Assembly (NCBI GenBank): GCA_021737645.1
Contig: JAIPDO010000025.1
Coordinates: 1-53,328 of the forward strand
Length of the DNA: 53,328 bases
Source of the DNA: Desulfarculaceae bacterium
GTDB taxonomy: Bacteria; Desulfobacterota; Desulfarculia; Desulfarculales; Desulfarculaceae
Direction of reading: 5' to 3'
Made by a program: the position numbers and the translations under genes. Under the pieces are notes generated by a model that saw only the letters and a program-made list of their open reading frames with translations, was not told the origin of the DNA and ran no database searches. Positions 2,006-40,566 of this stretch are shown here, piece by piece; the first letter of the stretch is position 1, and each line of letters starts with the position of its first letter.

Positions 2006-2968
2006 TTAATCAGTTTTAAATTGATAATTATATTTCATACACCATTCAAAAAAAGTATATGTATTTTCATATTTTTCACTAACCGACCTAGTTATTACAT
2101 AATCACCCAATTTAAGTGTAAACATTGTCTTGTTAAGCCATTTTTTAAATATTTCATTTGTTTTGTCTTTAGTTAACTCAACGGTTTTATTCATTTCACA
2201 ATATCTTTTTACCCAATTTAATGCATATAAGTCCCTTTTTATTCCATCTTTCAATGGAACATTATATTTAACTATAGGCAATGGCATCTTTTGGTCTGGT
2301 GCACTTACAAGGGCTTCATATACATAGCCACATCTTGGGCTTGCTATTATACCTATCCAGTTAGCTATTTCATACCATGATATAGCATCTTTCACTGCTG
2401 GTCCCAATATTATATTACTATTTTCGCTGTCAATATAATATTCTCCCGCACCAATTGACCCCCTCCACAAAATACCGTTATTTATTCCATATGGTATAAT
2501 ATCTTCAATAATATGAGGCAATAACCATAAAGCGACTGGCAAATAACTTTCCAGCACATGCCAGTAAATAATCAATGTATCTCCAAAAGCTATTACACCT
2601 GGTCTTTCAATTTTAACATCATCCAGTTTAAAATCAAACTTTCCAACCAAACCCTTCGCCAACAATATAACCAAACCAAGCACTTTCATTACGTCATCTT
2701 TTAATGCTTCGTGCAATTCTGTGCTTTTTTTGTCTATCAATCTAACTACCTCATCTTTATGTTTCATATATATTTCAGCTTCTTTTTTATTATAATCTCT
2801 AACACCAAGCGCATCTAACATCACAACAACGCCATGTTTTTTAGTTAACCTGTCGTCTTTATTCAATATATCTTCACCATCTATCTCCAGTCTTGTGACT
2901 GTTATAGGTGTTACCTTATTATCTTTATTTTTTTCTTCTACTACTTTATCTTTTTTTCCTTCTGACAT
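2006..2968 (-). CDS. Class III nucleotidyl-cyclase-like protein, island-borne
   Basis: This 320-residue soluble protein starts with a charged, probably disordered 25-residue tail. The core looks like a class III adenylyl/guanylyl cyclase fold: a first strand VVVMLDALGVRDY whose Asp matches the first metal ligand, a hairpin VIAFGDTLIIYW whose Asp matches the second, then ILWRGSIGAGEYYID and IILGPAVKDAISWYE, matching the strand and helix that follow in cyclases. The usual Asn/Arg transition-state pair is not obvious. Either the activity differs (as in the uridylate cyclases of Pycsar systems) or the domain only binds nucleotides. The gene follows a membrane-protein gene on the same strand by 38 bases, so the two are probably co-transcribed. 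GC is far below the host. The function is inferred from fold and context, not shown. Confidence 0.55.
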   Translation of the reverse strand: MSEGKKDKVVEEKNKDNKVTPITVTRLEIDGEDILNKDDRLTKKHGVVVMLDALGVRDYNKKEAEIYMKHKDEVVRLIDKKSTELHEALKDDVMKVLGLVILLAKGLVGKFDFKLDDVKIERPGVIAFGDTLIIYWHVLESYLPVALWLLPHIIEDIIPYGINNGILWRGSIGAGEYYIDSENSNIILGPAVKDAISWYEIANWIGIIASPRCGYVYEALVSAPDQKMPLPIVKYNVPLKDGIKRDLYALNWVKRYCEMNKTVELTKDKTNEIFKKWLNKTMFTLKLGDYVITRSVSEKYENTYTFFEWCMKYNYQFKTD

Positions 2969-3006
2969 AAAACTAACTCCCTTTCTGTGTTGATATATAA
3001 TAGTTG

Positions 3007-3864
3007 TTATATCTTGTCTATTAATTTAAAAAATATATATAATAATATTGGTAAACCTAAATATGTCCCATACCATATTAGTTTTTTACGTTGATTTATC
3101 CAGTCAAATTCATGTTCAGGTCCTATTTTTATTTCTACATGCGGCCAATCATCATTTAATATATCATATATTTTGAAAATTATTCGCATCACAACTATGA
3201 ATATAATCAAACCTATTACAAAACCAATAAGTGTGGGCTGAGAGTCACTCTTATCATATAATATCTTTTCTAGACTATTAAAATATCTACTTCCCATGTC
3301 AATTACAGTTATTTTGTATATAATTAAAAATAATAATATTGAAGAAATTACTCCGGACAAAGCAAGAACTATGGGTTTGTCTAATATCTTCAATCTATTT
3401 TGGTTCTCTAAACTGTCAACCCATTTTTTAATTTTTTCACGCATTACAAAAACCCATTGGTCATTATTAGATGTTATATCAATTTCTTGAGGTATATTTG
3501 CGTGATGAATGAAAGCTCTAATTGAAGAACTATTTTTAGTAATTGATATATATACAGAAAAAGATAAAACTCTTTTACGTTTGAAATGTTGTTTTAAAGT
3601 GTCAATATCTTCAGATGTGAATCTTATAGACGATTCGTTAGATAGTGTTAGCGAATAACTTATATATGGCACATTTGCCGCATATTCGGTATTTAAAATC
3701 TTACAATTGTTGATTTCATCATATTCATTAATATTTTTCTCTTTCAAATCATCAATAATCCTTCTCTTTTCACCTTCAAAAATATCTATAAGTTCAACCA
3801 GATTATCGTATTTAATAATTTTATCCTTTATCTCTACTTTTTCATTAAAAGTATGTTCAATCAT
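3007..3864 (-). CDS. Island membrane protein, soluble N-domain plus three TM helices; candidate effector
   Basis: This 285-residue protein has no family I can name. Residues 1-160 are soluble and mixed alpha/beta. Three hydrophobic helices follow: about 170-190 (LALSGVISSILLFLIIYKI), 213-236 (IGFVIGLIIFIVVMRIIFK) and 262-282 (WYGTYLGLPILLYIFFKL). A cytosolic sensor domain joined to membrane helices is the plan of many abortive-infection effectors that damage the membrane once triggered. It is the first gene of a two-gene unit with the cyclase-like protein downstream. An imperfect 16-bp inverted repeat sits 23 bases upstream of its start and could be an operator. The sequence is very AT-rich. 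The effector role is inferred from layout alone. Confidence 0.5.
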   Translation of the reverse strand: MIEHTFNEKVEIKDKIIKYDNLVELIDIFEGEKRRIIDDLKEKNINEYDEINNCKILNTEYAANVPYISYSLTLSNESSIRFTSEDIDTLKQHFKRKRVLSFSVYISITKNSSSIRAFIHHANIPQEIDITSNNDQWVFVMREKIKKWVDSLENQNRLKILDKPIVLALSGVISSILLFLIIYKITVIDMGSRYFNSLEKILYDKSDSQPTLIGFVIGLIIFIVVMRIIFKIYDILNDDWPHVEIKIGPEHEFDWINQRKKLIWYGTYLGLPILLYIFFKLIDKI

Positions 3865-4051: not shown

Positions 4052-5386
4052 CTACTTAAATATTTCTTCTATAAGTCTCTCATTCCTCCCAATCTCCATC
4101 ATTCTTCTATATGCGTCTCCACTTCCAAAATCATCTGGACTGATTTGAGCTGCATTGTGTTGATAAAAATCTTCTACCATTTTAACGGAAGTCCCAAAAT
4201 AATTAGCTATTTGAAGATGTGTTAAGTTCTTATTTTTAAGAAGTCTCATCATGGCTGAATGCCTCAAACAATATAAAACTTTTGGTTCATTTTCATTATA
4301 CATATCATAATCAATAAGCAGTCTTTTAAAATATTCTCCTAGTCTTTGAGGTTTTGTTTGGTTTGGGGTAATGAATACATACCGGTCAAGTTTAAATAAA
4401 TCTTCAAAACTCATACCTCTCAAATCTTCGTGCAAGTCTCGTAAGTATTCCAAATATGGTTTTATTTCTCTGGGGGCAATTACGTCTCTCTTTGATTTCC
4501 CTTTACCCTCAATTCTCAGATTGAAATAAATTCCATTATCGTGTCGTTGTGTAGATATACAATTCCACTTCAGAGGGTTAGTTTCTGGGCCAGGCCTGAT
4601 TCCTGTTAAATATACGACTCCGATAAATCCATATAGTAGTTGTCTAACTTGACGAGAGATTTTTTTGTTTATCGTTTTATTCGTTTCCGGTTTTCTCCTT
4701 TTACCATCCTCCATCCAATCCCTAGAATTTAAAATTAATTTTGATATTTCATCTTGAGTAAAAAAAGGTCTTGGTTGTTGAGGCCGTTTCAACATATCCT
4801 TTTTAGAAACTATCGGTCTAACTGAAATATAATTTTTAGATTCTGCGTATTTTAAAAGATAGTTCAACGCAGAACAGTGATTCTGAATCGTTGATATACT
4901 CCTTGGTTTTGGTTTTTCTAATAACTTTTTACTTGGCTTCTTTTTTTTACTTTCCCAAAGAGGTAACTCTTCACTATACCTTTCAAAATCTGACGTTTTC
5001 ACTTTCCTTATATCTATATCCCCCAATAGGTCTTTTACAGGGCCATCCAGTATAAGACTGTAATCATAATATATTGTTTTGTATCCTAATTGGCCCTTCA
5101 TTTTATCTAGTATCGCCACAACTTTATCAGCCACATTTCTTATCAGTATTGGTTTATCTTCTACTTCAATACCTTCTTTATTTAAAAATCTAACTCTGTC
5201 AAATTCATTTCCAGCAATTTCTTTAGCTTCTTTAAAATCACCTGTTTTCGAAGAAAGTTTTCTCCATTTACCTGATGGCCAACGAAACATATAATACCAA
5301 TTTGGGTTTCCATCCTCCCTCTGATACAGAACTACCTTTCCATCCCTGATGTGAGTTTGGTTCTTCATCCAGGACTTCTTGGACAT
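4052..5386 (-). CDS. Tyrosine recombinase (phage-type integrase) of the island
   Basis: This 444-residue integrase cuts and rejoins attachment sites through a covalent phosphotyrosine. An N-terminal arm-binding region and a SAM-like core-binding domain precede the catalytic domain. Its residues are visible: Arg264 in LTGIRPGPE, Lys in GKGKSKRD, Arg375-His376 in YCLRHSAMM and the nucleophile Tyr408 in VEDFYQHN. The start is placed at the ATG at 5386 because GGGAGG lies 9 bases ahead. An upstream in-frame ATG has no such site. The gene faces away from the selC junction 215 bases upstream, the normal layout for an integrase next to its attachment site, and three TGGGAAAC repeats lie between. Codon use is AT-rich like the rest of the island. 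Confidence 0.93.
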   Translation of the reverse strand: MSKKSWMKNQTHIRDGKVVLYQREDGNPNWYYMFRWPSGKWRKLSSKTGDFKEAKEIAGNEFDRVRFLNKEGIEVEDKPILIRNVADKVVAILDKMKGQLGYKTIYYDYSLILDGPVKDLLGDIDIRKVKTSDFERYSEELPLWESKKKKPSKKLLEKPKPRSISTIQNHCSALNYLLKYAESKNYISVRPIVSKKDMLKRPQQPRPFFTQDEISKLILNSRDWMEDGKRRKPETNKTINKKISRQVRQLLYGFIGVVYLTGIRPGPETNPLKWNCISTQRHDNGIYFNLRIEGKGKSKRDVIAPREIKPYLEYLRDLHEDLRGMSFEDLFKLDRYVFITPNQTKPQRLGEYFKRLLIDYDMYNENEPKVLYCLRHSAMMRLLKNKNLTHLQIANYFGTSVKMVEDFYQHNAAQISPDDFGSGDAYRRMMEIGRNERLIEEIFK

Positions 5387-5487
5387 TAAACAGACCTCCC
5401 AAGACACAACACCATATACCGGATTATCATTTCCCGGATTAGGGGTAGATGTCCACTACGAACCTCTGGGTCATTCATGATATCAAA

Positions 5488-5514
5488 TGGGAAACTGGGA
5501 AACAACTGGGAAAC
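5488..5514. repeat. Three direct copies of TGGGAAAC (possible integrase arm sites)
   Basis: Exact TGGGAAAC octamers start at 5488, 5496 and 5507, between the integrase gene and the selC junction. Closely spaced short direct repeats at this place are typical arm-type binding sites of tyrosine integrases. Confidence 0.55.
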
Positions 5515-5600
5515 ACTAACGAGGTTAGGGGTGTTCTGGTTAACTAATTGAAATAATGTAATTAAAAGGCTTTATAAAAGAATTAAAGTACCATTTTATA

Positions 5601-5644
5601 GGGATTTGAAGTCCGGGAGCCCCACCAGTGAGCTTTCCACTTCC
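5601..5644 (-). tRNA. selC: 5' half of a selenocysteine tRNA gene (anticodon UCA), cut by the island
   Basis: On the minus strand the gene starts GGAAGTGG (an 8-nt acceptor half, as in tRNA-Sec), continues with AA and a D-arm of 17 bases with a CTGG loop, and reaches the anticodon arm ...CGGACTTCAAATCC with anticodon TCA at 5607-5609. CTTCAAA is the tRNA-Sec anticodon loop. The 3' anticodon stem should then pair with CCCGG, but the sequence turns into AT-rich island DNA (TATAAAATGG...). The long variable arm, T-arm and a predicted end CCACTTCCGCCA are absent here and are not seen elsewhere in the window. A good promoter lies directly upstream. The gene as present is truncated. Confidence 0.75.
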
Positions 5645-5655
5645 GATATGGGCAA

Positions 5656-5684
5656 AAACTATCATCGGCACCGGTTAGCGTCAA
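5656..5684 (-). promoter_or_regulatory. Sigma70-type promoter of selC
   Basis: On the minus strand, TTGACG (5684-5679) is followed after 17 bases by TAGTTT (5661-5656), about 11 bases ahead of the tRNA 5' end. It overlaps the last bases of cca. Confidence 0.6.
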
Positions 5685-7135
5685 GAAAAGCTCTGCAAAT
5701 GAACCTCTCTGGCCAGGGCCAGGGCCTGGTCCTTGCTGCTTATCTCGCCGTCCAACTGGGCCTCACGCACCAGGTTCAACAAACGGCCCACCTCCTTGCC
5801 CGTGGGGAGTCCCAGGGCCTGCATCAGGTCCTTGCCGTCCAACAGGGGCGGGGCGGCCAGGGCCGCGGCCAATTCCTTGTCACGCAGACGGGCCACCTCC
5901 TGATACAGGGCCAAAAGCCTACTCTCGGCCTCGGGCGGGCGCAAGGGCCCCCGCCCGGCGATGGTGTCGGCCATGGCCAGCATGAACAGGGCAGGCAACT
6001 CCGGCCCCAGGGCGGCCAGCATGCGGCGCACCCCCCGGCGGGTAAGCTGGCCGCGCCCCTGGGCCCCCAGCAGATGGAAGGGCCGCATGTGCTCGGCCAC
6101 CAAACCGCCCACCCAGGCCGCGTCGGCCTTGGAGAGCCCCATGGCCCGGCAGCGCGCCGAGGCCAGCTTGGCCCCCAAAATCTCGTGGCGGTAAAAAGTG
6201 GCCCACTGCTCGTCCTTGGCCTGACGGGTGGGGGGCTTGCCCAGGTCGTGCAGCAGGGCGGCGGTCATAAACAAGGCCCGGCGGCGCGGCTCCTGTAGGT
6301 AGGCTGGCCCTTCTTCGGCCAAAGCCCCGGTCAGGGGCCCCCGCCCGGCCAAGAGCAATCCGGCGGCCCGCACGCAGGCCAGGCTGTGGCCCAGCACATC
6401 CAGATGGTGATAGGGGTTCTGGTCCAGGCCCCGCCCGGCAGCCAGTTCCGGGGCCAGGCGGGTGAGCACCCGGCAATCTTCCATGGCCTCCACCGCACGC
6501 ACCGCCTGGGGGCCGGCCATGAGGCGCAACCACTCGGCCCCGATGCGCTCGGCGGCCACCCGGAAGAGGCCCGGCGCGGCCCCGGCCAGGCGCTGTTCCA
6601 GGCCCGGAGCCAAGGCGAAGCCGTGGGTAGAGATGAAGCGGAAGGCCCGGAGCACCCTGAGGGGATCGTCTTGCAGCACCCCCGGCCCGGCGGGCCTGAG
6701 CAGCCCGGCGGCCAAGTCGTCCCGCCCGCCGGTGGGGTCTATCAGATGGGATTCAGGATTATCTGACCAGAGTTTATCCAGAGGCAGGGCCAAGGCGTTT
6801 ACGGTGAAGTCGCGGGCGGCCAGGTCGGCGGCCAGGGTGGGGGCGCGCAGACCGGCCAGGTCCAGCTCGCCGTGGGGGGTCACCACCCGGCAGGTGGCGA
6901 ACTCTCGCCCCAGGGGCACGAAGCGCGACGCGCTCCGCTCGGCCAAGGCCCGGCCCAGGGTCATGGCGTCGCCGTCCACGGCCAGGTCCAGATCAGGGGG
7001 GCGGCGCTCCAGCAGCAGATCGCGCAGGGTGCCGCCGCACAGCCAAAGCTCCTGGCCGAGCTCCTTGGCCAGGGCCGCCAGGACGGCCAAGGCCGGATGG
7101 CCGCCGATCTCGCGCCAGAGATCCCCGCCGGTCAA
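5681..7135 (-). CDS. cca: CCA-adding tRNA nucleotidyltransferase / poly(A) polymerase family, with HD domain
   Basis: This enzyme adds or repairs the CCA end of tRNAs (or polyadenylates RNA) using CTP and ATP. Visible signatures are the class II head motif LCGGTLRDLLLERR with the metal-binding DLDLAV, HLIDPTGGRDDL, the RNA-binding motif DDPLRVLRAFRF, and an HD phosphohydrolase domain with AALLHDLGKPPTR near residue 295. HD-bearing forms are common in proteobacteria. The start is set at TTG 7135, six bases after AGGAAG and just after the stop of the LysM gene. A longer frame without a ribosome site would overlap that gene. It forms a two-gene unit with the LysM protein, and selC follows it. 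I cannot tell from sequence whether the enzyme is CCA-adding or A-adding only. Confidence 0.9.
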   Translation of the reverse strand: MTGGDLWREIGGHPALAVLAALAKELGQELWLCGGTLRDLLLERRPPDLDLAVDGDAMTLGRALAERSASRFVPLGREFATCRVVTPHGELDLAGLRAPTLAADLAARDFTVNALALPLDKLWSDNPESHLIDPTGGRDDLAAGLLRPAGPGVLQDDPLRVLRAFRFISTHGFALAPGLEQRLAGAAPGLFRVAAERIGAEWLRLMAGPQAVRAVEAMEDCRVLTRLAPELAAGRGLDQNPYHHLDVLGHSLACVRAAGLLLAGRGPLTGALAEEGPAYLQEPRRRALFMTAALLHDLGKPPTRQAKDEQWATFYRHEILGAKLASARCRAMGLSKADAAWVGGLVAEHMRPFHLLGAQGRGQLTRRGVRRMLAALGPELPALFMLAMADTIAGRGPLRPPEAESRLLALYQEVARLRDKELAAALAAPPLLDGKDLMQALGLPTGKEVGRLLNLVREAQLDGEISSKDQALALAREVHLQSFS

Positions 7136-7137
7136 GG

Positions 7138-8607
7138 CTACTTCCTGACCACGATCACCAGCTTCTCCCCGATGTAGAGCTTGTCGCGGGCGCCCAGCTG
7201 GGGGTTCCACTCCTTGATCTGCCTCATCTTCACCCCATAGCTGCGGGCCAGGCCGTAAAGGGTCTGTCCGGGGCGCACCAAGTGTATGATGCGCACCGGC
7301 TTGGGCTCCGCCGGTGGGGCCGGTTTGGCCACCAAGGCGGGCCTTGCCTTGGCCTGGGCGGCCACGGTGGAGACTTTTTTCTCCAACTGGTCCAGGCGGC
7401 GGTCCATGACTTGCTCGTCCTTGTTGTCGGCGGCCTGCTGTTTCTCCAGGGAACGGAGGCGGGCGCTCAGCTTGGGGTCGGCCTTGACGGCGGCGGCGGC
7501 CTGCTTCTTTACCTGGGCCAGCTCCTTTTCCAAGGAGGCGATGCGCTTGGCTGCTTCCAACTCCTGGCGCGAGGGCCGGGCCTGGGCCTGGCCCAACGCA
7601 GCGATTTGCTTTTCCAAGCCGCTTAGGCGCTGGGCCAGCAGGGGCGAAGCCAAAGGCGCACCCTTGACCGTGGGCGGAGCCACGGCCAGGACGCCCAATT
7701 GTTTTGCCAGGCGCTCTTGGCCGCGCTGCAACTGGCCCAAGGAAGTGGTCAGACCGGCCAACACCTTGCCCTGGCCCGCCACCCGCTGGGTCAACTCAGG
7801 CGGGGCGGCGGCAGCCGTCCCGCCTTTGGCCGGGGGACGCTGGGCCAGGTCCTTGACTTGCTTTTCCAGGGAGGCCAGGCGCTGGTCCAGCTTGGCGGGC
7901 GCCGGCGCGCTCTTGGCCTCCAGGCGTTTGTCCAACTCGGCCACCTTGGCGGCCAGCTTGTCCTCGCCCTTGGCTGGGGCCAGCTTCTTGAGGTCTTTGG
8001 CCATAGCCTGGTTTTGCTTATCCAGGGCGGCCAGGGACTTTTCCATCTGGGCCACCTGGGGAGTCAGCTTGCCCTGGGCCGCGCCCAGGGACTTGGCCAG
8101 CTCCTTGTTTTGCTTATCCAGGGCAGCCAGGCTCTTTTCCAGCTTGTCCATGCGCGCGGCCAGCTTGGGATCGGCCGCCTTGCCCCCCGCCGCCGGAGCG
8201 GCGGGCAGGTTGGCCAGCTTTTTCTCCAGGGCCGCAACCCGGGCGGCCAGCTTGGGGTTGCCACTCCCGGCGGCCGGGATCTGGCCGTTTTCCTGAGCCT
8301 GATTCAGACGCTTTTCGGTGTGGGCCAGGCGCTTGTCCAGGTCCTTGATACGCTGGTTGGCGGCTTCGGCGGCGCTGAGCACCTTGTCCAGGCGGGCGGG
8401 GTTGATGCCCTGGCCCAGGGGGCCTCCGGCGGGCGTGGGGGCCTCGGCCCCTCCCCCGAACAGGCCGCTCAAGAGCACGTAGATAAGATACACCCCACCC
8501 ATGGCCACCAGGATGGCCACCCCGATCTCCAGGGGCGAAAGGCGGAAACTGCGGCGGCCGCCCCTGTTGCCGGTGGGCAGTTTGGGGCTGGAAAGCACCT
8601 TGGGCAT
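7138..8607 (-). CDS. Membrane-anchored coiled-coil protein with C-terminal LysM domain
   Basis: The protein has 489 residues. A short cytosolic, basic N-terminus is followed by one TM helix (about residues 27-48, IGVAILVAMGGVYLIYVLL). Then comes a roughly 370-residue rod built from repeated heptads such as LAARVAALEKKLA and AALDKQN, separated by Ala/Pro-rich stretches. The last 50 residues are a LysM fold (HLVRPGQTLYGLARSYGV ... LYIGEKLVIV) that binds peptidoglycan. The protein should reach from the inner membrane across the periplasm to the cell wall, perhaps as an envelope spacer or scaffold. It is the first gene of a unit with cca and is divergent from the enoyl-CoA hydratase gene. Low-complexity repeats make the rod hard to align. 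No specific family is recognised beyond LysM. Confidence 0.85.
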   Translation of the reverse strand: MPKVLSSPKLPTGNRGGRRSFRLSPLEIGVAILVAMGGVYLIYVLLSGLFGGGAEAPTPAGGPLGQGINPARLDKVLSAAEAANQRIKDLDKRLAHTEKRLNQAQENGQIPAAGSGNPKLAARVAALEKKLANLPAAPAAGGKAADPKLAARMDKLEKSLAALDKQNKELAKSLGAAQGKLTPQVAQMEKSLAALDKQNQAMAKDLKKLAPAKGEDKLAAKVAELDKRLEAKSAPAPAKLDQRLASLEKQVKDLAQRPPAKGGTAAAAPPELTQRVAGQGKVLAGLTTSLGQLQRGQERLAKQLGVLAVAPPTVKGAPLASPLLAQRLSGLEKQIAALGQAQARPSRQELEAAKRIASLEKELAQVKKQAAAAVKADPKLSARLRSLEKQQAADNKDEQVMDRRLDQLEKKVSTVAAQAKARPALVAKPAPPAEPKPVRIIHLVRPGQTLYGLARSYGVKMRQIKEWNPQLGARDKLYIGEKLVIVVRK

Positions 8608-38595: not shown

Positions 38596-40566
38596 ATGAG
38601 TAAAATCGACAAGCCGCAAAAACTCCAGAGCCTGGTCCCAGCGGACGTAACCACCTGCGAGACCACCCAACAGATGCTGGCCAAGGCCCAACGAGACGGC
38701 GTGGAGACGGCCTTTGACCGGGCGGCGGCCATGAAGGCCTGCCCCATCGGTGAAAAAAGCGCCTGCTGTAAGCACTGCGCCATGGGCCCCTGCCGCCTCA
38801 ATTCCAAAGACCCCTACGCCAAGGTGGGCGTCTGCGGCGCCACCATCGACACCATCCAATCGCGCAACTTCGCCCGCATGGTGGCCTCGGGCACCGCGTC
38901 GCACACCGACCACGGCATGGAGATGCTCAGCCTGTTCAAGGGCGTGGTGAGCGGCCATATAAAAGACTACGAGATCAGCGACACCGAAAAGCTCATCCAG
39001 GTGGCCGGCGAACTGGGCATAGCCACCGAGGACCGGGAGACGATGGACATCGCCCGGGACCTGTGCTCCGAGATGGAAAAGACCTACACCCAGATCGAGG
39101 GCGAGATACCCTTTATCAAGCGGGCCCCGCTGAAGACCCAGGAGATGTGGCGCGAGGCCGGGGTGGTGCCCCGTGGGGCCATGCGCGAGATCATGGAGAT
39201 CATGACCCGCACCCACATGGGCATGGATCAGGACCACACCAACCTCATCAAGCAGATCAACCGCACCGCCTTGGCCGACGGCTGGGGCGGCTCCATGGTG
39301 GCCACCGAGATCGGCGACATGCTCTTCGGAACCCCCTACCCCGTGGTGGGCGAGGTGAACATGGGCGTGCTCCGGAAGGATGAAGTAAACGTCATCATCC
39401 ATGGCCACGAGCCCAACCTGTTCGACTCCATGATCGCCTCGGTGAACGACCCGGCGCTTATCGCCAAGGCCGAGGCGGCGGGAGCCAAGGGCATCAACCT
39501 GGTGGGCATGTGCTGCTCGGGCCTGGAGATGCTCTCGCGCAAGGGCATTCCCCACGCGGGCAACTTCATGAGCACCGAGGCCATTCTGGTCACCGGCGCG
39601 GTGGACGCCATGGCCGTGGACGTGCAGTGCATCAAGCAGGGCCTGGCCAAGGTGGCCGACTGCTACGGCACCAAGCTGTTCACCACCAACCCCCGCGCCC
39701 ACATCGAGGGCGTGACCCACATCGAGTTCGAGGAAGACTATCCCCGCGATTGCACCGACTCGGTGGTGGAGATGGCCATCAAGCGCTTTGCCAGCCGCGA
39801 GCTCCCCATCGAGATCCCCAAGCGCAAGGACAAGGGCGTGTTCGGCTTCAGCCATGAGTACATCAACTACATGCTGGGCGGCACCTTCCGGGGCTCCTAC
39901 ACCCCGCTCAACGACAACATAATCAACGGGCGCATCCGGGGCGTGGCCGGAGTGGTGGGCTGCACCAACCCCAGGGTCAAGCAGGACTGGGTGCACGTTG
40001 AGCTGGTCAAGGAACTGATAAAGAACGATATCCTGGTGGTGCAGACCGGCTGCTCCCAGATATCGCTGGCCAAGGCGGGGCTGTTGACCCCCGAGGCGGC
40101 CCATCTGGCCGGGCCGGGCCTGGCCGAGGTCTGCGAGACCGTGGGCATGCCCCCGGTGCTGGGCCTGGGCGCCTGCGTGGACAACAGCCGCATCCTCACC
40201 GCGGTGTGCAACATGGTGGCCGCCGGCGGTTTGGGCGATTCCATCGCCGACCTGCCCGTGGCCGGGGCCGCGCCGGAGTGGATGAGCGAAAAAGCCATCG
40301 CCATTGGCCAATACTTCGTGGCCTCGGGCGTGTACACCATCTTCGGAGTCACCTTCCCCATCGTGGAGCAGTCCAAGTTCCACAAGCTGATGTTCGAGGA
40401 CCTGGAGAATCAGGGCATGGGCAAGTGGGACTTCGCGGTCGACCCCCACGAGATGGCCGCCAAGATGATCGCCCACATCGAGAAGAAGCGGGCCGCCCTG
40501 GGCCTGGACAAGGACAAGGAGCGGGTGCTGGTGGGCATGGACGACCGCCGGGCCATCGACGCCTAA
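38596..40566 (+). CDS. cooS: Anaerobic Ni-Fe carbon monoxide dehydrogenase catalytic subunit
   Basis: The protein has 656 residues. It oxidises CO to CO2 or the reverse at a Ni-Fe-S C-cluster. The N-terminal cysteines for the D and B clusters are visible (SACCKHCAMGPCR, KVGVCGAT). C-cluster ligands fit IIHGHEPNLF (His), GMCCSGLE, VVGCTNPRV, QTGCSQIS and LGACVDNSR. Length matches CooS/AcsA. ATG 38596 follows AAAAGGACG. Its own promoter and a strong terminator make it monocistronic. No cooF, cooC or acetyl-CoA synthase genes are in the window, so its electron partner must be elsewhere. It may serve CO oxidation or detoxification, or supply CO for the Wood-Ljungdahl pathway. Confidence 0.96.
   Translation: MSKIDKPQKLQSLVPADVTTCETTQQMLAKAQRDGVETAFDRAAAMKACPIGEKSACCKHCAMGPCRLNSKDPYAKVGVCGATIDTIQSRNFARMVASGTASHTDHGMEMLSLFKGVVSGHIKDYEISDTEKLIQVAGELGIATEDRETMDIARDLCSEMEKTYTQIEGEIPFIKRAPLKTQEMWREAGVVPRGAMREIMEIMTRTHMGMDQDHTNLIKQINRTALADGWGGSMVATEIGDMLFGTPYPVVGEVNMGVLRKDEVNVIIHGHEPNLFDSMIASVNDPALIAKAEAAGAKGINLVGMCCSGLEMLSRKGIPHAGNFMSTEAILVTGAVDAMAVDVQCIKQGLAKVADCYGTKLFTTNPRAHIEGVTHIEFEEDYPRDCTDSVVEMAIKRFASRELPIEIPKRKDKGVFGFSHEYINYMLGGTFRGSYTPLNDNIINGRIRGVAGVVGCTNPRVKQDWVHVELVKELIKNDILVVQTGCSQISLAKAGLLTPEAAHLAGPGLAEVCETVGMPPVLGLGACVDNSRILTAVCNMVAAGGLGDSIADLPVAGAAPEWMSEKAIAIGQYFVASGVYTIFGVTFPIVEQSKFHKLMFEDLENQGMGKWDFAVDPHEMAAKMIAHIEKKRAALGLDKDKERVLVGMDDRRAIDA

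Follow-up and report, generated by a model that had tools for sequence, protein, structure and literature searches.

What becomes of selC, the single-copy gene for the selenocysteine tRNA (tRNA-Sec), when an island enters it and a front half of the gene is left beside the integrase? The question is raised by the window analyzed here, the whole 53,328-nucleotide stretch that forms contig C19 of a 4.05-Mb draft genome held in 114 contigs with a completeness of 94.4%. On its minus strand, reading from 5644 to 5602, there is a 43-nt tRNA-Sec half with the anticodon TCA within CTTCAAA, which stops 3 nt past the anticodon loop. The answer that we favor is that a single island very probably entered selC and restored its 5′ half, and that the junction on C19 and a second junction on contig C32 are its two borders.

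Two 5′ halves and one 3′ half of selC

Upstream of the C19 half are cca and a conserved promoter-like site, and downstream of it are AT-rich DNA and the gene for a tyrosine integrase (int). The selC 3′ half is absent after it, the next 55 nt matching at 10 of 55 positions; ARAGORN calls no tRNA anywhere in the window, and the half alone matches the tRNA-Sec covariance model weakly (14.4 bits, E = 4.8, versus a gathering cut-off of 47). The half is intact, with 43/43 identity to the congeners G001, G004, and G006, and the same cca-bearing DNA stands directly upstream of selC in these three and in G005. A preliminary description of the window, made from its letters, had proposed a split tRNA-Sec gene beside an integrase, with a first half, a TCA anticodon and no 3′ half downstream, and an island integrated at the anticodon loop that left a promoter-bearing chromosomal half without its 3′ partner. 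All of this is upheld, with the loop included in a 17-bp core.

Genome-wide, a single tRNA-Sec gene scores over the cut-off, at C32:39601-39694 with 71.8 bits (39597-39694 with CCA), and pattern searches allowing up to 3 mismatches find that the assembly holds two tRNA-Sec 5′ halves, on C19 and C32, and one 3′ half, on C32. The missing 3′ half and the other selC that the preliminary description proposed looking for are both on C32, in one gene; its option that the cell has another selC stands insofar as this intact gene exists, which is best explained as the second island border and not as a separate gene. The C32 locus mirrors the window junction, with island-like DNA on the 5′ side of the gene and chromosome-like DNA on the 3′ side. 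The 1-kb windows upstream are 31-41% GC and those downstream 53-66% GC, most of the tested open reading frames (ORFs) upstream have no family match over the curated cut-off, and 63 nt (88.9%) are common to the 3′ flank of the C32 gene and the selC flank of G006. AT-rich DNA is found at both presumed island ends, which are on separate contigs.

The C19 and C32 junctions diverge on both sides of the 17-bp core, which lies within the tRNA gene. Joining the C19 5′ half to the C32 3′ half gives a selC identical at 98/98 positions to those of G001, G004, and G006, which score 73.2 bits in the covariance search, and at 94/98 to that of G005; a tRNA-Sec signal on joining, the lack of which had been named in advance as counterevidence to a split gene, is in effect obtained. 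The hybrid gene as it stands on C32 has the opposite pattern, 98/98 to G005 and 94/98 to the other three. The host and island 5′ halves differ at 4 of 43 positions, which make up two swapped D-stem pairs (12-26 and 13-25), and D-stem pairing is kept despite the differences.

The core is flanked by direct repeats, of which the GTTTCCCA copies in the window (Table 1) are, from their sequence, likely integrase arm-type sites. GTTTCCC also occurs at −95 and −83 from the core start on the C32 side, so that across both junctions the repeats lie 83-123 bp from the core. Two or more same-strand copies of GTTTCCC are seen in 10 of 200,000 random 150-nt stretches under a first-order model, a figure to be read with the motif having been chosen after it was seen. 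Repeats at comparable distances in both arms would be as expected of one attP.

To account for these junctions, we propose the following sequence of events. The island would have entered selC by tyrosine-integrase recombination in the 17-bp core, in which the anticodon loop lies. Of the two arms of its attP, the one distal to the integrase would have borne a tRNA 5′ half together with upstream DNA belonging to the island, and the integrase-side arm would have had no 3′ half. After integration, the host promoter and 5′ half would be left stranded beside int in the window, and at the C32 border the 5′ half brought by the island would join the 3′ half of the chromosome to rebuild a full-length selC. 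The displaced fragment would then be the host 5′ part, with the element restoring the 5′ part, provided that C19 and C32 are one element; since the island restores the 5′ half, this is the reverse of the usual polarity. We infer three things here: that C19 and C32 are the ends of one island, that the island promoter is active, and that the stranded host promoter reads into int.

The usual polarity is present in the same genus. G004 has a classic-polarity island at the same anticodon site of selC (L055:9903-18191), with an intact selC under the host promoter and a displaced 3′ fragment, from about 18122 to 18191 in L055, that adjoins a different integrase (Phage_integrase PF00589, E = 2.1 × 10−30). 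Two island polarities use one selC site within one genus. More broadly, a tRNA-Sec match at E = 10−9 or better is found in 33 of 60 genomes searched, the window's own included, and in 4 of 7 other same-genus genomes. As separate observations on selC loci, two 3′ flank types follow a shared AATGATTTCA, namely GTATGTTACG in L001 and L021 and AGGGGTTAG in L020, L024, and L055:18192, and these may record other insertions at the 3′ end; and the family member G013 has two tRNA-Sec genes over the cut-off, at C101:19303-19396 and C1:54779-54871 (70.4 and 56.7 bits).

Table 1. Coordinates of the selC junction and of the neighboring features in the window
Feature	Position	Strand	Basis and remarks
Chromosomal selC 5′ half, tRNA-Sec nt 1-43	5602..5644	−	Sequence comparison with congeners; presumably orphaned by integration
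att core, 17 bp, TCCCGGACTTCAAATCC, anticodon stem-loop region including the loop	5602..5618	−	Same block at C32:39652-39668
Three direct GTTTCCCA repeats	5488..5514	−	+104, +115, and +123 from core start
Host selC promoter-like site TTGACG-17-TAGTTT	5656..5684	−	8/12 consensus; −35 overlaps cca end; points at int
cca-type tRNA nucleotidyltransferase	5681..7210 (ORF limits)	−	PF01743, E = 2.2 × 10−16; chromosomal gene upstream of selC
Tyrosine integrase, 451 aa from GTG (ATG 7 codons in)	4052..5407	−	PHROG_1, E = 3.8 × 10−22
Two island ORFs, function unassigned	2006-2968 and 3007-3864 (span 2006..3864)	−	Composition

Objections and competing accounts

Several observations weigh against joining the two junctions into one island. 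The assembly puts them on different contigs and lacks the middle of the island. The 5.2-kb island stretch of the window is in none of 59 other genomes searched, so filled and empty sites cannot be compared within the species. C19 and C32 also have GTTTCCCA as a single copy at three further sites. On the 3′ side of the C32 gene, the G006 match is the sole chromosomal tie found, besides about 11 nt in other congeners. In the one-contig genome of G005, C32:23002-36589 aligns at 2.42-2.43 Mb and C32:36851-38702 at 0.66 Mb, and the G005 selC, at 4.35 Mb, is beside neither segment, which implies that the C32 chromosomal flank is rearranged; an insertion sequence (IS) transposase fragment about 0.3 kb from the C32 tRNA stands between it and the aligned segments. 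Lastly, a strict sigma-70 scan finds no promoter in L001:1300-2000 upstream of the island-borne half, where 1.1 were expected, and in the 60 nt of island DNA upstream of the hybrid the best site has 7/12 consensus matches, which is the commonest value among shuffles (663 of 2,000).

The rearrangement of C32 relative to G005 also suits the best surviving competitor, in which a complete selC was island cargo and the host gene was broken, its own 3′ half being lost or missing from the draft. A lost 3′ half is possible in a genome 94.4% complete, and phages with a full replacement tRNA are documented, as reported for tRNA-dependent lysogeny (PMC10865867). The core, however, has arm-like repeats at comparable distances from it in the two contigs, which cargo of this kind does not predict, and the stretch over which the borders are identical stops, on its 3′ side, inside the anticodon stem. 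Island-like DNA is moreover restricted to the 5′ side of the C32 gene, and its 3′ side has both the 53-66% GC and the 63-nt match to the selC flank of a congener. We regard a cargo gene as distinctly improbable.

Still less probable, to the point where we would give it little weight, is that an older event left the half gene as a decayed remnant and that the C32 selC is unrelated and independently acquired. In favor of this are a serine-recombinase gene and an IS transposase fragment by the left end of C19, and the IS fragment already mentioned beside the C32 tRNA; against decay, the C19 half is intact at 43/43, its promoter-like site is conserved, and int has an open frame. The preliminary description had offered a remnant of several events as one option, and this is supported in part, by the IS fragment and the rearrangement on the C32 chromosomal side. 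An assembly or binning artefact that swapped the selC loci of two strains, which a draft in 114 contigs and a hybrid D-stem equal to that of another species (G005) might bring to mind, is scarcely credible given that the 5′ halves share no exact match longer than the 17-nt core, which is less than an assembly join usually needs, and that an AT-rich arm with matching repeats is found at both junctions.

Decoding, expression and the integrase lineage

If a single island did rebuild selC on C32, is the product still a tRNA-Sec? The hybrid folds as a standard tRNA-Sec, with a minimum free energy of −40 kcal/mol and z = −2.66. In an alignment of 17 tRNA-Sec rows, 13 of them distinct, 11 of 30 pairs have changes on both sides; this alignment omitted 13 of the 30 tRNA-Sec loci, namely twelve of 97 nt plus L033. 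It also offers a side observation, that acceptor pair 8 (alignment columns 8 and 87) is G-G in 9 of the 13 distinct sequences, host and island alike; as this pair is nonstandard, tRNA-Sec of this kind may have a 7-bp acceptor stem. The genome further has selA, selB, and a formate dehydrogenase gene (fdhA) with one in-frame TGA, the UGA context of which we take to be as expected of FdhA. The proposal in the preliminary description that the island broke selenocysteine decoding is rejected, since selA, selB, the in-frame-UGA formate dehydrogenase, and an intact tRNA-Sec are all present. On the sequence evidence, selC is not lost.

The stranded promoter-like site of the host (Table 1) has an alternative spacing, TTGACG-15-GATAGT, that scores one match above TTGACG-17-TAGTTT, and all 4 congeners tested have TTGACG upstream of selC. 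The strict promoter scan of window positions 5300-5800 did not list this site at 5684-5656; it gave two sites where 0.5 were expected, neither of them upstream of the tRNA half. One, at 5455-5426 on the minus strand with 9/12 matches, is just upstream of int, and from its sequence int may have its own promoter there. The same interval has no terminator-like site (0.7 expected), so read-through from the host selC promoter into int is possible.

On the other border, the nearest island ORF upstream of the hybrid is divergent and 303 nt away, and therefore a promoter for the hybrid is probably island-borne and within the intervening 300 nt or so, where the best site has 8/12 consensus matches. L001 has two terminator-like sites (0.8 expected), one of them between the P-arm repeats and the hybrid tRNA. 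The 63-nt stretch resembling G006 covers a GC-rich inverted repeat 3′ of the C32 selC, which is a possible terminator; the terminator scan of L001 did not list it.

A bolder extension is that integration is a reciprocal promoter swap, which puts an island promoter on the only selC and gives the host promoter to int, and that the G005 allele is a scar of island loss. The selC of G005 (L024 / L053) has the exact island D-stem allele under the native promoter, and among 395 genomes that allele was found in 2, the window's own and G005. If the two 5′ halves recombined, the island could be lost and its D-stem left in the host gene, which would explain an island allele under a native promoter. Whether the island half was taken from a G005-like host or a scar was kept in G005 cannot be told. 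The promoter-like site directly upstream of int makes an exchange less likely, and we consider this extension unlikely overall. Were it true, all UGA-selenocysteine decoding in the cell would depend on the island.

The integrase reading frame is open, and 194 bp separate the C19 tRNA half from the int GTG. Taken alone, the protein matches no Pfam or NCBIfam model at E = 1, and a search of PDB sequences gives just an enolase at E = 0.31. The AlphaFold model from the single sequence is poor, with a predicted local distance difference test (pLDDT) score of 34.5, versus 84.8 with relatives included. The best Foldseek match of the model is lambda Int, 1z1b, with E = 1.7 × 10−9 and a query TM score of 0.38. 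R271, R382-H383, and Y415 are invariant across 36 aligned rows, and 36 of 36 rows have a tyrosine, Y379, at what we take to be the position of the usual histidine in the HxxR motif of tyrosine recombinases. The model has four N-terminal strands in residues 14-52, which appear to occupy the expected place of an arm-binding domain. With the integrase as the sole query, genome contigs, viral contigs, and phages yielded no relative and plasmids one partial match; in a sample of 395 genomes from the phylum, 2 have the integrase, counting the window's own. The two island ORFs beside it have 29-31% GC versus about 65% in the chromosome, and have no match in Pfam at 0.01, in PHROGs at 0.1, or in PADLOC at 0.01; in NCBIfam the sole match, for the ORF at 3007-3864, is subthreshold at E = 0.071.

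A two-sequence profile drew 110 integrase relatives, of which 80 were kept and 35 of these entered the alignment. An intact tRNA-Phe or tRNA-Asn gene is within 500 nt upstream of the match and on the same strand in 9 of the 80, which is the classic polarity, and 29 of the 80 have a common 14-mer that we read, from its letters, as the complement of a tRNA 3′ end. One relative, in the Methylophilaceae (L084), is different in kind. Its locus has the first 38 nt of a tRNA-Phe at 3695-3732, ending at the anticodon loop, with a related integrase gene 3′ of the half and on the same strand. The half is identical at 36/38 positions to L060 and L061 and at 30-36/38 across seven related tRNA-Phe genes, and the DNA after it is unrelated (4-7 matches of 38). 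No tRNA was found in the 9.1 kb of L084, and the half has no tRNA match by covariance scan, so the case is carried by the tRNA-Phe identities. The survey for remnants relied on motifs of the D-arm and T-arm and would overlook atypical tRNAs, tRNA-Sec among them, so that one 5′-half remnant among the 80 related integrases is a lower bound. The tree puts the window integrase with the tRNA-Phe and tRNA-Asn rows and L084 in a set of 12 (support 100/99), a placement that is unsure because of the very long branch (4.29) of the window integrase. A 5′-half remnant at tRNA-Phe among relatives of classic polarity suggests that island polarity can change within one integrase lineage. The island tRNA-Sec 5′ half was not found in viral contigs.

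Relation to known systems

Islands in tRNA genes that displace a 5′ fragment are a type reportedly associated with work by Zhao and Williams in 2002, as cited in PMC6563490. According to the Islander description (PMC4383910), 159 islands have a 5′ fragment versus 3760 with a 3′ fragment, and the island in our window is like the 159 in restoring the tRNA 5′ part and displacing the host 5′ fragment. It is unlike the general Islander set in that its target is selC, with the only tRNA-Sec over the cut-off in the genome, and in that the island half has two swapped D-stem pairs. The pTN3-like integrases of Thermococcales are reported to rebuild a full tRNA that is cut off from its original promoter (PMC5495485, PMC8371274); that system is archaeal and the integrase gene itself is cut by integration, whereas here int is whole.

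In the tRNA-dependent lysogeny reported for Fionnbharth and relatives, the element replaces the function of the tRNA that it disrupts and the cell depends on it (PMC10865867). There, a whole phage tRNA gene compensates and no junction is rebuilt, but here a half gene is supplied at the junction, and the C32 junction has a full tRNA-Sec, so that the island does not belong to that class. The account of ICEKp1 describes a host tRNA promoter upstream of int and in the same direction, with int 161 bp from the insertion site, and reports experimental demonstration of read-through from that promoter into int (PMC13023037). The ICEKp1 tRNA keeps its own promoter, in contrast to our island, where the host promoter would be detached from the full-length tRNA. 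At tRNA-Sec itself, Pf-tRNA-Sec prophages are reported to use a 27-bp site at the tRNA 3′ end (PMC7549136). The G004 island shares with the C19 island both the tRNA gene and the anticodon region, but there it is the 3′ half that is restored, next to the host promoter, and a 3′ fragment that is displaced, where the C19 island restores the 5′ half. Among the literature matches listed, no title or opening of an abstract points to an earlier 5′-fragment island in selC, which is no proof of absence.

The insertion is thus ordinary in kind and uncommon in polarity, being of a known but uncommon type. The selC target, the diagnostic D-stem differences, and the second 5′-half remnant beside a related integrase are not seen in the literature consulted. 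What the window adds to this type is a cleanly dissectable bacterial case in which the front half of a single-copy tRNA gene, with the region upstream of it, belongs to an island and not to the host; and as four diagnostic bases tell the host half from the island half, transcript origin and allele replacement could be read from RNA or genome data.
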